Positions 47,423 through 57,835 of a stretch of 64,000 nucleotides of DNA are shown piece after piece. The notes under the pieces were generated by a model. It was not told the DNA's origin. It saw nothing but the letters and a program-made list of their open reading frames with translations, and did not search any database. The first letter of the stretch is position 1; the number at the start of each line of letters is the position of its first letter. The stretch lies in assembly GCA_031256675.1 (NCBI GenBank), contig JAIRQC010000027.1, positions 17,386 through 81,385 of the forward strand, written 5' to 3'. Source of the stretch: Rikenellaceae bacterium. Lineage in GTDB: Bacteria; Bacteroidota; Bacteroidia; Bacteroidales; Rikenellaceae. The translations under genes were made by a program, and so were the position numbers.

Positions 47423-49360
<1,938 letters not shown>

Positions 49361-49442
49361 AATGGTTGGGGGTTAGTGGTTATTATGCAATATGTGGTCG
49401 CTATATTCTTATTGTCCCTGCCGTGACACGCAGCCCGCAGCG

Positions 49443-49756
49443 GCGCGGAGGGCAGGTCGGCTTGGCGTAAAGGGCTGCCCAAGTCGGTTCGGCGTGGAGA
49501 GTTGCGCGGGTTGGCTTGGAATGGAGAACTGTCCAAGTCGGTTCGGCGCAGATTGTTGCCAGGGCTGGCCCTGTGTAAAGGGTTGCACAAATTGGCCCGA
49601 TGCGAAGAGCTGCACAAGTTGACCCCGTGTAAAGGACTGCACAAGTCGGTTCGGCGTGGAGGGCTGCGCGGGTTGGCTTGGAACGGAGAACTGTCCAAGT
49701 CGGTTTGGCGCGGAGGGCAGGTCGGTCAGGTGCGGAGAGTTGACCAAGTCGGCCCG
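49443..49756. repeat. 27-bp degenerate tandem repeat array (~10 full units plus truncated 22-bp units near both ends)
   Basis: Units from 49465 at exact 27-bp steps to 49707 (e.g. gcgtggagagttgcgcgggttggcttg, gaatggagaactgtccaagtcggttcg, gtgtaaaggactgcacaagtcggttcg), with gcgcggagggcaggtcgg... partial units at 49443 and 49708 and a last full unit at 49730-49756. Confidence 0.9.
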
Positions 49757-49865
49757 CAAAAAGACGCTCGCCGTTCTCCCTGCCGTTCTCCTTCCTGCAT
49801 GTCGCCCTGCAAAGTTTTATGCAGGCATGACCCTGCCCTCGTTCCTGCGTCGGGCCGACCTCAGG

Positions 49866-49943
49866 CCGCCTCCTTCGTCTGCAAACCGTTCCAGCCATTT
49901 GCGCCCGCCTCCGCCGTCTGCGGGTCGTCCCAGCCATTTGCTG
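49866..49943. repeat. 39-bp tandem duplication downstream of the MmcQ gene
   Basis: ccgcctccttcgtctgcaaaccgttccagccatttgcgc / ccgcctccgccgtctgcgggtcgtcccagccatttgctg. Confidence 0.88.
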
Positions 49944-49965
49944 CCGCAGCGGCACCTGAACTCAT

Positions 49966-50319
49966 CTATCCGAAATACTCTTCCCTTGTCTTCCTCGGCA
50001 GCTTCCTGACCACCTCGTCGTAGGAGTGGTCTATCAGTTCGCGTATCACGCCATCCGGCACATCGGCCTCGAGGCGCACCGTATTCCAGTACTTTTTGTT
50101 GAAATGATAGGCCCCCTCCATCCCGTCATAGCGTTCGCGCAGCTCCACCGCCAGCTCAGGGTCGCATTTCAAAGCGATCTGCGGCTCGTCGGCGTCGAGC
50201 GGGATCAGGGCAAACATCTTGCCCAGTACCTTCACCACCAGCGACACATCGTCGAACGGAAAGCACTCCGCGCTCCCCGCCTTCGCCAGACAATACTCGC
50301 GAACCTGTTCAATATCCAT
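49966..50319 (-). CDS. MmcQ/YjbR family DNA-binding protein
   Basis: 117 aa; EYCLAKAGSAECFPFDDVSLVVKVLGKMFAL, HFNKKYWNTV. Confidence 0.9.
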   Translation of the reverse strand: MDIEQVREYCLAKAGSAECFPFDDVSLVVKVLGKMFALIPLDADEPQIALKCDPELAVELRERYDGMEGAYHFNKKYWNTVRLEADVPDGVIRELIDHSYDEVVRKLPRKTREEYFG

Positions 50320-50365: not shown

Positions 50366-50701
50366 ATTTTCGGCCCGCGGTCGGCAGAGGATGTTCGAGC
50401 AGCGCGAGAGCAGCCCTCCGCATCCGGCGGCTGCGGGCTGCCGACCTTGCTCCGCAAGGCAGGGCAAAACAATAAGCGAATAGTGCAGGGAGGTAGCATA
50501 TTAACGATAAGTGAGTAGTGAGAAATATTCGGAGCGGAGAATAATCGCTGACCGGAGCAGTCCGGTAGCCGGTGGGCGGCTAAATTTTAGTTAAAAACGG
50601 CCTTGCTTAGCAAGGTCGGCTGCCCGCTGCCGCTCCCGGCGAAGGGCTGCCCGCTCTGCCTACGGCATCGCGACATCCTCCGCCGACCGCGGGCCGAAAA
50701 T
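50366..50701. repeat. MITE-like element with ~100-nt imperfect terminal inverted repeats
   Basis: attttcggcccgcggtcggcagaggatgt (50366-50394) pairs with acatcctccgccgaccgcgggccgaaaat (50673-50701); inner arms ctgccgaccttgctccgcaaggc and gccttgcttagcaaggtcggctgcc also pair. Confidence 0.75.
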
Positions 50702-52295: not shown

Positions 52296-53345
52296 ATGAA
52301 TATGGGAACACGTTACGCTATTGCCATCCTGCTTGCTGGAACGGCCTTTATCTCCTGCTCACGCAGCAAGGAGGGGTACAACAACGACAGGCCTGACGAA
52401 GTAATGCGGCTGACCATCGCCACCGACGGCAACACGGGGTTTTCGATGAACGGCCTCGGCGCCGCCGGCGTCGACTGGGGCGACTCGTCATACGACACGA
52501 AGCAGCTTGCATCCGATCCTGAAATCGACCAGACGATGTTCAGCCACAGCTATTCCGCCCCTGGCGAATATACGATAAAAATATATGGCGGGAACATCAC
52601 GACGCTGGACTGCTCCGGCTACGAACTGACGGGGCTGGACGTTACGGACAATCCCGCCCTGACGCGCCTTAGCTGCGGCGCAAGCGAGTTGTCTGCGCTG
52701 GACGTAAGCCACAATACTGCGTTGACGTATCTGGATTGCAGCGGCAACAGCCTTACGGGGCTGGACGTAAGCAGAAACACAGCCCTTGTCGAGCTGGGTT
52801 GCGGCTACAACCGGTTGACGGAGCTGGATTTAAGCAAAAATGCCGCATTGCGCCTCCTGTGGTGCAGCTTTATGGAGTTGACGGAGCTGGACACAGGCGC
52901 AAATCCCGCCCTGACCTATTTGGCCTGCGGCGGCAACCGGCTGACGGCCCTGGATGTGAGCGGTAATGCCGCGCTGGCGGAGTTGCATTGTCAGGACAAT
53001 CTGCTGACGAACCTCGACGTGAACGCAAACCATGAGTTAAAGGTTTTGGGATGCCATAACAATCAACTGTCGACGTTGAGGCCGGACGCCGCCGCCCTCA
53101 GAGTACTGTTTTGCGACGGCAACAGTTTGACCTCCCTTGACCTTACGGCGTGCATCGCATTGAGTAGCGTCCTTTGTCAGGACAACCTGCTCTCCGCCGT
53201 GGCGTTAAACGACCTGTTCGGGACGCTGCACGCCAATATTGTCGCAGGCGGCAAATTCATATACATAAATGGCAACGACGGCACGGACAGCTGCGACCAG
53301 AGCATAGCCGCGGGCAAGGGATGGACGGTGGACGTAACCGATTGA
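52296..53345 (+). CDS. Leucine-rich-repeat lipoprotein
   Basis: 349 aa; MNMGTRYAIAILLAGTAFISCS lipobox; about 9 LRRs of ~21 aa (L(D/E)VSxNTALTYLDCSGNSLTGLDVS); start at 52296 rather than ORF start 51948. Confidence 0.88.
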   Translation: MNMGTRYAIAILLAGTAFISCSRSKEGYNNDRPDEVMRLTIATDGNTGFSMNGLGAAGVDWGDSSYDTKQLASDPEIDQTMFSHSYSAPGEYTIKIYGGNITTLDCSGYELTGLDVTDNPALTRLSCGASELSALDVSHNTALTYLDCSGNSLTGLDVSRNTALVELGCGYNRLTELDLSKNAALRLLWCSFMELTELDTGANPALTYLACGGNRLTALDVSGNAALAELHCQDNLLTNLDVNANHELKVLGCHNNQLSTLRPDAAALRVLFCDGNSLTSLDLTACIALSSVLCQDNLLSAVALNDLFGTLHANIVAGGKFIYINGNDGTDSCDQSIAAGKGWTVDVTD

Positions 53346-54307: not shown

Positions 54308-55302
54308 TGGATATAGATTTCGTAATAGCCTGGGTAGACGGGGCCGACCCTGCGTGGCGGGCGGAGTTCTCCCGATACAGGGCGGCAGACGGCGCGGCGG
54401 CGGGCGAGTTGACCGACGCCTCCGTTTCGCGCTACCGCGACTGGGACAACCTGCACTACTGGTTCAGGGCCGTCGAGCGGTTTGCGCCGTGGGTGCGTCG
54501 CATCCATTTCATTACGTGGGGCCACCTGCCCGCGTGGCTCGACGCGGCCCACCCGAAACTGCATGTCGTCCGGCACGAAGAGATCCTTGATGCGGCGTAT
54601 CGCCCGACGTTCAATATCAATCCGCTGGAGCTGTCGCTGCACCGTATTCCGGGGCTGGCCGAACGGTTCGTATTCTTCAACGACGACATGTTCCTCGGCC
54701 GTCCCGTGGGGCCCGAACGCTTCTTCCGCTGCGGATTGCCGTGCGACGCCGCCCGCCTGAGCGTCATCGCCCCAAGCTCTATCGCCCATATCCTCCTCAA
54801 CGACGTTGCGCTGATCAACAGGCGGCACAGGAAACAGGTACTCAGGCAGTTCGGAAAATGGTTCAACCTGCGCTATTCGCTCGCGGACATGTTCAAGAGC
54901 CTGACGCTGCTGCCGTGGAGCGCCTTCGCCGGCTTCAAAGACCCCCACATGCCGCAGCCATTCCTCAAAGCTACCTTCGAGCGGCTGTGGGCCGAAGAGG
55001 GGGAGACGCTCGGAGGGACGCTGCCGCACCGGTTCCGCTCGCTGCTCGACTTCAATCAGTACCTGATGCGTTACGAGCAGCTTGTGACAGGCTGTTTCGC
55101 ACCCGTTTCGTACCGCGACGCCCGTCTCGACACCCTCGGCGAACAGAGCATCGAGCACATCTGCCGTTTTATCGCCGGGCGTCGCTATGCGATGTTCTGC
55201 CTGAACGACAGCGAGGCCATAGCCGATTTCGACGCGCTCCGTGCCCGTCTGTGCAGTGCATTCCAACAGATACTTCCCGAAAAGTCGAGCTATGAACTGT
55301 AA
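54307..55302 (+). CDS. Stealth-family sugar-phosphotransferase
   Basis: 331 aa; DIDFVIAWVDGADPAWRAEF (CR1), RDWDNLHYWFRAVERFAPWVRRIHFITWGHLPAWLD, NDDMFLGRPV; start shares 1 nt with the upstream stop. Confidence 0.88.
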   Translation: MDIDFVIAWVDGADPAWRAEFSRYRAADGAAAGELTDASVSRYRDWDNLHYWFRAVERFAPWVRRIHFITWGHLPAWLDAAHPKLHVVRHEEILDAAYRPTFNINPLELSLHRIPGLAERFVFFNDDMFLGRPVGPERFFRCGLPCDAARLSVIAPSSIAHILLNDVALINRRHRKQVLRQFGKWFNLRYSLADMFKSLTLLPWSAFAGFKDPHMPQPFLKATFERLWAEEGETLGGTLPHRFRSLLDFNQYLMRYEQLVTGCFAPVSYRDARLDTLGEQSIEHICRFIAGRRYAMFCLNDSEAIADFDALRARLCSAFQQILPEKSSYEL

Positions 55303-56218
55303 ATTCTCGGTGATAATACCGCTCTACAACAAGCGGGACGACATTGCCGCCACGCTTGCCTCCGCCCTCGCCCAGAGCTACCCGCCGCACGAGATTGTGG
55401 TGGTTGACGACGGCTCGACGGACGGCTCGGGCGACGTGGTGCGGACGTTCGACTCCCCGCTGATCAGGCTGATCTCCCAGCCCAACGCAGGGGAGTGCGC
55501 CGCCCGCAACCGCGCCATGGCCGAAGCGACGGGCGAATACTTCGCCCTGCTCGACGCAGACGATCAGTGGGAGACGGGCTATCTGGCCACGATAGCTTCG
55601 CTGATAGAGAAATACCCCGACTGCGGGGCATACTGCACGGCATTCACAATAGTCGGCGCGGGGGGCGAGAAACCGAGCCGGTCGCCCGAAAAAGAGGGGA
55701 TTGTAGACGACTATTTCCGCCGCGCGCTCGAATGCCATATACTGCTCCCCTCCGAAACCACCCTCCGGCGCGAGGTTGTGGAGCAGGTCGGGGGCTTTCC
55801 TGTGGGTATGAAGCTCGGCGGCGACCAGTACATGTGGGTAAAACTGGTTGCGGCGGGATGGCGTGTGGCCTGTTCGCCGCTGCGGATGATGCGTTACAGC
55901 GCCGTGGCGGCCAACCGCAGCTCGGCGATCTACGTCGCCGAGCAGACGGAGCACTCTTTCCGCGACTATTATGCCGAGGGTGACTTCTGGCGCAACGAAT
56001 ATCTGGCCCGCGTGGAGCTTAACAAGGCCATCGTCGTCTCGGCCAAAGGTGGCGCATCGGAGGCGCGCGACACGGAGCGGTTCTACCGCTATACCCGCCG
56101 TTCGCGCACGGCATGGTACAAACTCTGGACGCTCAACCGTCTACCCCGCCGCTGGCGCGCCCCGCTGCTCGGGCTCTACAACCGCGCGGCGTGGATCCTG
56201 GCAGGGAAAGGGTTCTAA
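55292..56218 (+). CDS. Glycosyltransferase family 2
   Basis: 308 aa; FSVIIPLYNKRDDIAATLASALAQSYPPHEIVVVDDGSTDGSGDVV. Confidence 0.93.
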   Translation: MNCKFSVIIPLYNKRDDIAATLASALAQSYPPHEIVVVDDGSTDGSGDVVRTFDSPLIRLISQPNAGECAARNRAMAEATGEYFALLDADDQWETGYLATIASLIEKYPDCGAYCTAFTIVGAGGEKPSRSPEKEGIVDDYFRRALECHILLPSETTLRREVVEQVGGFPVGMKLGGDQYMWVKLVAAGWRVACSPLRMMRYSAVAANRSSAIYVAEQTEHSFRDYYAEGDFWRNEYLARVELNKAIVVSAKGGASEARDTERFYRYTRRSRTAWYKLWTLNRLPRRWRAPLLGLYNRAAWILAGKGF

Positions 56219-56664
56219 TGCCTTAATTCTGCGAGCAGGTCTGCTACGACGAACGAACTGCCGCCGATGAAGATCATGTCGGAGGGCGAGGCGAGCGAGC
56301 GGACGGCGGAGTATGCCCCTGCAACGCTTGCGCTCGCCTCGCCGTGCAGCCCCGCCGCCCGACAGAGGCCGGCCAGCTCCGAAATGGTACGAACTCTGGA
56401 CGCTCAACCGTCTACCCCACCGCTGGCGCGCCCCGCTGCTCGGGCTCTACAACCGCGCGGCGTGGATCGCGGCGTGGATCTTGGCAGGGAAAGGGTTCTA
56501 ATGCCTTAATTCTGCGAGCAGGTCTGCTACTACGAACGTACTGCCGCCGATGAAGATCATGTCGGAGGGCGAGGCGAGCGAGCGGGCGGCGGAGTATGCC
56601 CCTGCAACGCTTGCGCTCGCCTCGCCGTGCAGCCCCGCCGCCCGGCAAAGGCCGGCCAGCTCCG
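56113..56664. repeat. ~281-bp tandem duplication spanning the ends of the convergent GT2 and folC genes
   Basis: atggtac(a/g)aactctggacgctcaaccgtctacccc at 56113 and 56394; both copies continue through the GT2 stop and the folC 3' end. Confidence 0.92.
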
Positions 56665-57835
56665 AAGCGGGCAAGGCGCGGGGGGTGGAGGGCTGTGTAA
56701 ATATATAGTGCGCCTCGCGAGGCAACAGTGGCACGATCTCAGACAGATTCTTGTCGGCCACAAAACCGACGACCATATATAACCGTTCGTACCCCTGCCG
56801 GGCGATCTGGGCGGTTACCTCTTTAAGCCCGTGGGCGTTATGTCCCGTGTCGCATATCGTCAGCGGATGGTCGCACAGCTTCTGCCACCGCCCCGAAAAT
56901 CCTGTCGAGCGGGCCGCCGAGGCGCAGCCGGCAAGTATCGCACCGCGCCCGATGCGCAGCGGCATGGCGTCGAGCGCCGCCATGCAGGCGACCATGTTTT
57001 TGCGCTGGTAACCGCCCGTCAGGTCGAGGGCGACCCTGAACGGTGAAAATTCGTCATGGAACGACGAATTTTCACCGCCCGACGGCAGCCCCCCATGCCT
57101 CTCTCCGCAGCGGACAAGCTCCATTACCTGCCCCTCCGCTGACGGTTCCGCGGCGACGCACTGCCAAAGGGCGTCGGCAAAGAGCAGCTCCGAGCCGCAC
57201 TCGCGGGCACGCCGCACGAAAACCCCGTCGTACTCCGGCGAGCTCTCCCCCACCACCGCCGTCACGCCCGGTTTGATGATCCCCGCCTTTTCGGCGGCGA
57301 TCATCGGCAGCGTGTCGCCGAGCAGCGCCGTGTGGTCGAGGCCGATATTGGTGATGACCGACAGTATCGGCGTGATGATATTGGTTGCGTCGAGCCGCCC
57401 GCCCAGGCCGGTCTCCACCACGGCCACGTCGACCCCCGAACGGCGAAAATGGTCGAAAGCCATGCCGACCGTCATCTCGAAGAACGACAGCCCCTCCATC
57501 GCCCCGCGCCACCGCCCGACAAACCCCACAACCTCCTCTTCGGAAACCGGCTGCCCGTCGACCCTGATACGCTCGCGGAAATCGACAAGGTGCGGCGAGG
57601 TGTAGAGCCCCACGCGATAGCCCGCCGCCTGCAACACCGAGGCAAGAATATGCGATGTCGACCCCTTGCCGTTCGTTCCGGCAACGTGTATCGACGCAAA
57701 ACTCCGCTCGGGCCGTCCCAGCCGCTCGCAAAAGGCCGCTACACGCTCCAGCCCGGGCTTGTAGGCCTGAGCGCCAACATGCTGAAACTCCGGCAGCGAA
57801 CCGTACAGATACTCCAGCGTCTGCCCGTATGTCAT
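56498..57835 (-). CDS. folC: Bifunctional folylpolyglutamate/dihydrofolate synthase
   Basis: 445 aa from MTYGQTLEYLY; HVAGTNGKGSTSHILASVLQ, ETGLGGRLDATN, TNIGLDHTALLGDT. Confidence 0.95.
   Translation of the reverse strand: MTYGQTLEYLYGSLPEFQHVGAQAYKPGLERVAAFCERLGRPERSFASIHVAGTNGKGSTSHILASVLQAAGYRVGLYTSPHLVDFRERIRVDGQPVSEEEVVGFVGRWRGAMEGLSFFEMTVGMAFDHFRRSGVDVAVVETGLGGRLDATNIITPILSVITNIGLDHTALLGDTLPMIAAEKAGIIKPGVTAVVGESSPEYDGVFVRRARECGSELLFADALWQCVAAEPSAEGQVMELVRCGERHGGLPSGGENSSFHDEFSPFRVALDLTGGYQRKNMVACMAALDAMPLRIGRGAILAGCASAARSTGFSGRWQKLCDHPLTICDTGHNAHGLKEVTAQIARQGYERLYMVVGFVADKNLSEIVPLLPREAHYIFTQPSTPRALPASELAGLCRAAGLHGEASASVAGAYSAARSLASPSDMIFIGGSTFVVADLLAELRH

Follow-up and report, generated by a model that had tools for sequence, protein, structure and literature searches.

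In a draft Rikenellaceae genome, a run of 27-bp tandem repeats takes up part of the gap that separates an MmcQ/YjbR gene from the gene of a TlpA-type lipoprotein, and the question it raises is whether this array is a gene, a regulatory or structural element, or simply repetitive DNA. We examined it within the window, by which we mean the whole analysed stretch of 64,000 nucleotides, and compared it with the rest of its own genome and with related genomes. The reading we favor, with a probability of roughly 0.78, is that of a single-copy non-coding intergenic minisatellite, which would have grown by slippage or unequal recombination, undergone duplication of a block of units and since diverged, and which lies beside a module of a dispersed repeat. 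The relevant features of the locus are the following (those given without a strand are unstranded).

47423-49360, minus strand: lipoprotein with a C-terminal thioredoxin/TlpA-like domain (PF13905, 5.4e-13), downstream neighbor
49443-49464: left-edge variant unit of 22 bp, overlapped by an exact 19-nt match (49442-49460 = 49707-49725)
49465-49707: core array, nine 27-bp units, pairwise identity 37-93% (10-25 of 27 positions)
49467-49552: 86-bp block, copy 1 (units 1-3), 91.9% identical to 49629-49714
49629-49714: 86-bp block, copy 2 (units 7-9), found by blastn
49708-49729: right variant unit of 22 bp
49730-49756: last unit, overlapping at its end the first bases of the dispersed hairpin module
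49751-49772, plus strand: hairpin-type module GGCCCGCAAAAAGACGCTCGCC, the sole exact match to the pattern in this genome
49751-49852, plus strand: right flank homologous to an intergenic mosaic of the congener (106 bp, 69.8%, E=1.5e-9 against L158)
49866-49943: 39-bp tandem repeat x 2 (77-81%), the second one in this spacer
49966-50319, minus strand: MmcQ/YjbR family protein (PF04237, 1.8e-27), upstream neighbor

The host assembly is a draft of 140 contigs and 2.38 Mb, estimated to be 82% complete. The Lon protease encoded in the window is 72-73% identical to proteins of metagenome-assembled genomes named Alistipes or Rikenellaceae, as against 52-55% for Bacteroides, Phocaeicola and Paraprevotella, and on these sequence identities we read the host as an Alistipes-like member of the Bacteroidales. 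The array occupies part of a 605-bp gap between two genes that are both on the minus strand, and the domain matches listed above bear out the neighbors named in the original prediction, MmcQ and a thioredoxin lipoprotein. Other features of this part of the window deserve mention in their own right. A MITE-like element of 336 bp (50366-50701) is separated from the array by mmcQ; its terminal inverted repeats of 29 nt (ATTTTCGGCCCGCGGTCGGCAGAGGATGT / ACATCCTCCGCCGACCGCGGGCCGAAAAT) are 97% complementary and enclose long, imperfect arms. It has 44 matching pieces in this genome at E<=1e-6 (the wider spacer has 121 at E<=0.1), the congener has 18, and 39 other genomes gave a single short match. A tandem duplication of ∼270-283 bp, 94-97% identical (56113-56666), covers the 3' terminus of a glycosyltransferase gene (55292-56218) and extends into the terminal part of folC (56498-57835). 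A leucine-rich-repeat protein with a 63-bp period (52296-53345) is encoded beside thioredoxin reductase, and its best NCBIfam match, internalin-J-like, falls far below the cut-off.

The periodicity of the array is well above background. Autocorrelation over 49440-49760 reached 0.56 at lag 27 and 0.60 at lag 54, while the highest values among 500 dinucleotide shuffles were 0.36 at lag 27 and 0.41 at any lag. Tandem Repeats Finder (TRF) also recovered the array, preferring a period of 54 (score 161) over one of 27 (score 88), and similarity between repeats is somewhat higher at a spacing of 54 bp than at 27 bp. The layout proposed in the original prediction, nine units at an exact 27-bp step with 22-bp variants at 49443 and 49708 and a final unit at 49730-49756, was reproduced in full, and the two variants share an identical 19-nt stretch, GGCGCGGAGGGCAGGTCGG. 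The higher-order duplication it had suspected is also present and is larger than claimed, since units 1-3 correspond to units 7-9: the pairs 1/7, 2/8 and 3/9 agree at 24, 25 and 25 of 27 positions, respectively, and blastn aligns the two copies of the 86-bp block, 162 bp apart, at 91.9% identity. The remaining units differ from one another at up to 17 of 27 positions, only 4 of the 27 columns are invariant across the units, and transitions outnumber transversions among the units by 301 to 72.

The unit matches together with the block identity indicate that the array grew by duplication of single units and of a block, and it is old enough for its copies to have diverged. A plausible course of events would begin with a ∼27-bp word in the mmcQ-lipoprotein spacer, beside the dispersed hairpin-type module; this word may have multiplied by slippage or by unequal recombination of the units with one another. 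Next, about three units would have been duplicated as a block 162 bp away, and the copies would later have diverged, mostly through transitions. The array would in this case have no function. The array has tandem units within the ∼10-100 bp range, a periodicity above chance and a position outside genes (between the YjbR and lipoprotein genes, with all six frames unlike genes in codon usage), as is expected of a minisatellite, one of the readings originally offered and the one that our results support.

The array sequence occurs once in its own genome, so that the proposed search for the same unit elsewhere gave no second copy. No homolog of the array was found in 60 relatives, the one exception being a match of its flank in the congener. 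An origin from phage was rejected, as the array sequence had no match among phage records or viral contigs. We also surveyed a 297-kb sample of the same genome, excluding the window, and found 17 tandem arrays with a TRF score of at least 90 (at least 160 in 7 of them); some of the arrays fall inside long open frames, and others apparently are in spacers. Because such arrays are many, the 27-bp array is typical of its genome. The strong examples include a 96-bp unit x2.4 at L238 14846-15070 (score 352) and a 62-bp unit x4 at L252 15644-15878 (score 260). Kinship between the 27-bp array and the arrays of L238, L245, L247 and L252 was considered and rejected, all four alignments being within shuffle range; the array at L247 13347-13422, which has a period of 27 and looks similar by eye, consists of a different word built on 13-14 bp.

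At its right edge the array passes in register into the hairpin module GGCNNGCAAAAAGACGCNNGCC / GGCCCGCAAAAAGACGCTCGCC. In the only congener compared (G001; 1.8 Mb, 54% complete), this module has 62+70 = 132 matches with at most 2 mismatches, against 0 for a reversed-pattern control; the array's own genome has one exact copy, that at the array, and two weak ones, and the other genomes searched are at control level. In the congener, short modules of the hairpin type, among them GTTGGCTCGCAAAAAGACGCTCGCC, GGCAGAGAGTTCGAGCGAGCTCGACTCTGC and GGTTACTTTTTATAAAAAAGTAACC, are combined into spacer mosaics in which their order and number vary (L144 1600-2200, L003, L005, L009, L111 and L113). The right flank of the array, which aligns to one such mosaic, belongs to a genus-specific intergenic repeat family.

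These observations bring up the possibility that the array itself is part of a mosaic element that occurs between genes throughout the genus, and that its 27-bp unit has diverged from the dispersed hairpin module (NAAGTTGGCNNGCAAAAAGACGCNNGC). This would be a refinement of the minisatellite reading, not fully exclusive of it, and we consider it unlikely. The module continues the register of the last unit, with CAAGTCGG at 49745 and likewise at 49480, 49534 and 49642, and the congener has one case of a tandem module pair at exactly 27 bp (L144 1942-1995). The natural phase of the alignment is the best of 54 rotations, and at that phase only 1.75% of column permutations equal its score; when the phase is left free, however, 43% of permuted profiles reach the match, which is thus not significant. 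Moreover, blastn of the array alone against the congener gave a best E of 1.7, and a Smith-Waterman alignment to the congener's mosaic was within shuffle range. We therefore did not accept homology of the 27-bp unit to the hairpin module, in spite of the shared register. A broader form of the idea would describe a genus-specific system, one that reshuffles hairpin-type modules (the congener has ∼130 of them in 1.8 Mb) among spacers and amplifies them locally into arrays with a 27-bp step; the end products would then differ in kind and location from one related species to the next. We regard this as rather doubtful.

The array also lies upstream of the lipoprotein start and on the same strand, where repeated protein-binding sites or an mRNA leader could tune expression of the downstream gene; the somewhat greater likeness of repeats at 54-bp spacing would fit such a cis-regulatory array. 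We think this very improbable, as so few columns are invariant and no intact box is preserved among the units. The fold of the array is no better than that of shuffles (z = +1.55) and a search of the window against Rfam matched no RNA family; a structured RNA was rejected on these results. Relatives of the lipoprotein in other genomes of the family are 28-54% identical, and at those of their loci that were examined there was neither a YjbR gene nor a comparable array; in the 54% complete congener no match to the lipoprotein was found.

That the array encodes a small repeat protein expressed from the minus strand, or serves as a nursery of repeat proteins, had been suggested from its open frames, and the case for it comprises three long minus-strand ORFs (49357-49698, 49401-49955 and 49409-49759) and the pattern of differences in one frame. 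All three minus frames are indeed open over the nine units, but over the full interval 49443-49756 only two of them are, the third containing a stop. Openness is a weak coding signal here, because a 27-bp unit free of stops is expected to stay open when repeated: among random 27-mers of the window used as repeat unit, 78% gave three open frames on one strand. Under stricter controls the openness is mildly unusual, since only 2% of column-permuted arrays reached three open frames and, when the full interval was shuffled by dinucleotides, 9% of the shuffles kept at least two. This, along with the differences by codon position in frame -2 (138/78/157, lowest at position 2 and highest at position 3), counts against a non-coding reading; the frame -2 pattern, the sole coding-like hint, has a p of about 0.05 over registers and comes from 27 columns only.

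Codon usage gave a different picture. With a codon model built from the 35 long ORFs of the window itself, the six frames of the array scored between -0.14 and -0.72 bits per codon, while genuine gene stretches of 243 nt had a median of 0.41 and a 1st percentile of -0.12. The three minus ORFs themselves scored -0.36 to -0.38, whereas the scores of MmcQ and the lipoprotein were +0.41 and +0.36, respectively. No Pfam family was matched by these three ORFs or by the plus-strand ORF of the array, and the 60 relatives yielded no homolog. The longest minus ORF has an Arg-rich non-repeat half, and Arg-rich translations are usual when GC-rich DNA is read spuriously. The stop of the ORF at 49357-49698 overlaps the ATG of the lipoprotein gene as ATGA (49357-49360), in the manner of translationally coupled genes, but since this minus frame has no coding signature the overlap is probably due to chance. 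The array thus shows neither the host-like codon usage nor the conserved homolog or known repeat domain of a repeat-protein gene; an expressed product of this kind seems to us highly improbable, and from its sequence properties we take the array to be non-coding. An assembly artefact is scarcely credible even in a draft of this fragmentation and completeness, as units that differ at so many positions are not stuttered copies and the flanks are continuous genes.

Viewed as a minisatellite, the array resembles the bacterial intergenic VNTR loci used in MLVA typing in its head-to-tail units of tens of bp, its location in a spacer, its imperfect copies and its signs of block duplication. VNTR loci are defined by variation in copy number between strains, whereas the array is known from one genome and its units are strongly diverged. 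The closest described analog is BrickBuilt, a minisatellite-MITE of Porphyromonas gingivalis that consists of 23-nt tandem units without spacers, and is intergenic and bounded by repeated 'leader' and 'tail' sequences; each genome has 19 copies, which possess small inverted-repeat ends and whose units show 0-11% mismatches within any one copy (PMC4596501). The array is like BrickBuilt in its Bacteroidales host, its spacer-less tandem units, its intergenic position and its repeated flanking sequence, but it occupies one genomic place instead of 19, and only one of its two flanks belongs to a repeat family. Around the array we found no good pair of inverted-repeat ends, the only candidate being a 24-nt pair at 71% (49433-49456/49832-49855). 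Membership in a BrickBuilt-like minisatellite-MITE family was accordingly rejected on copy number and inverted ends. The module at the edge of the array is in turn similar to REP-type palindromes, the dispersed intergenic families surveyed in PMC3733652, in being a short GC-rich hairpin-type word dispersed between the genes of the congener, while the array units are neither palindromic nor dispersed. An open-access search of the literature on repeats in Alistipes/Rikenellaceae returned nothing relevant.

The array is therefore an uncatalogued instance of a kind of repeat that is ordinary. By itself it has little significance, and it could serve as a typing marker if its copy number varies. Of wider bearing are the spacers of two species of one genus, which are rich in repeat modules that do not rise above background in the other members of the family searched; this genus-limited abundance suggests that repeats turn over rapidly within one genus.
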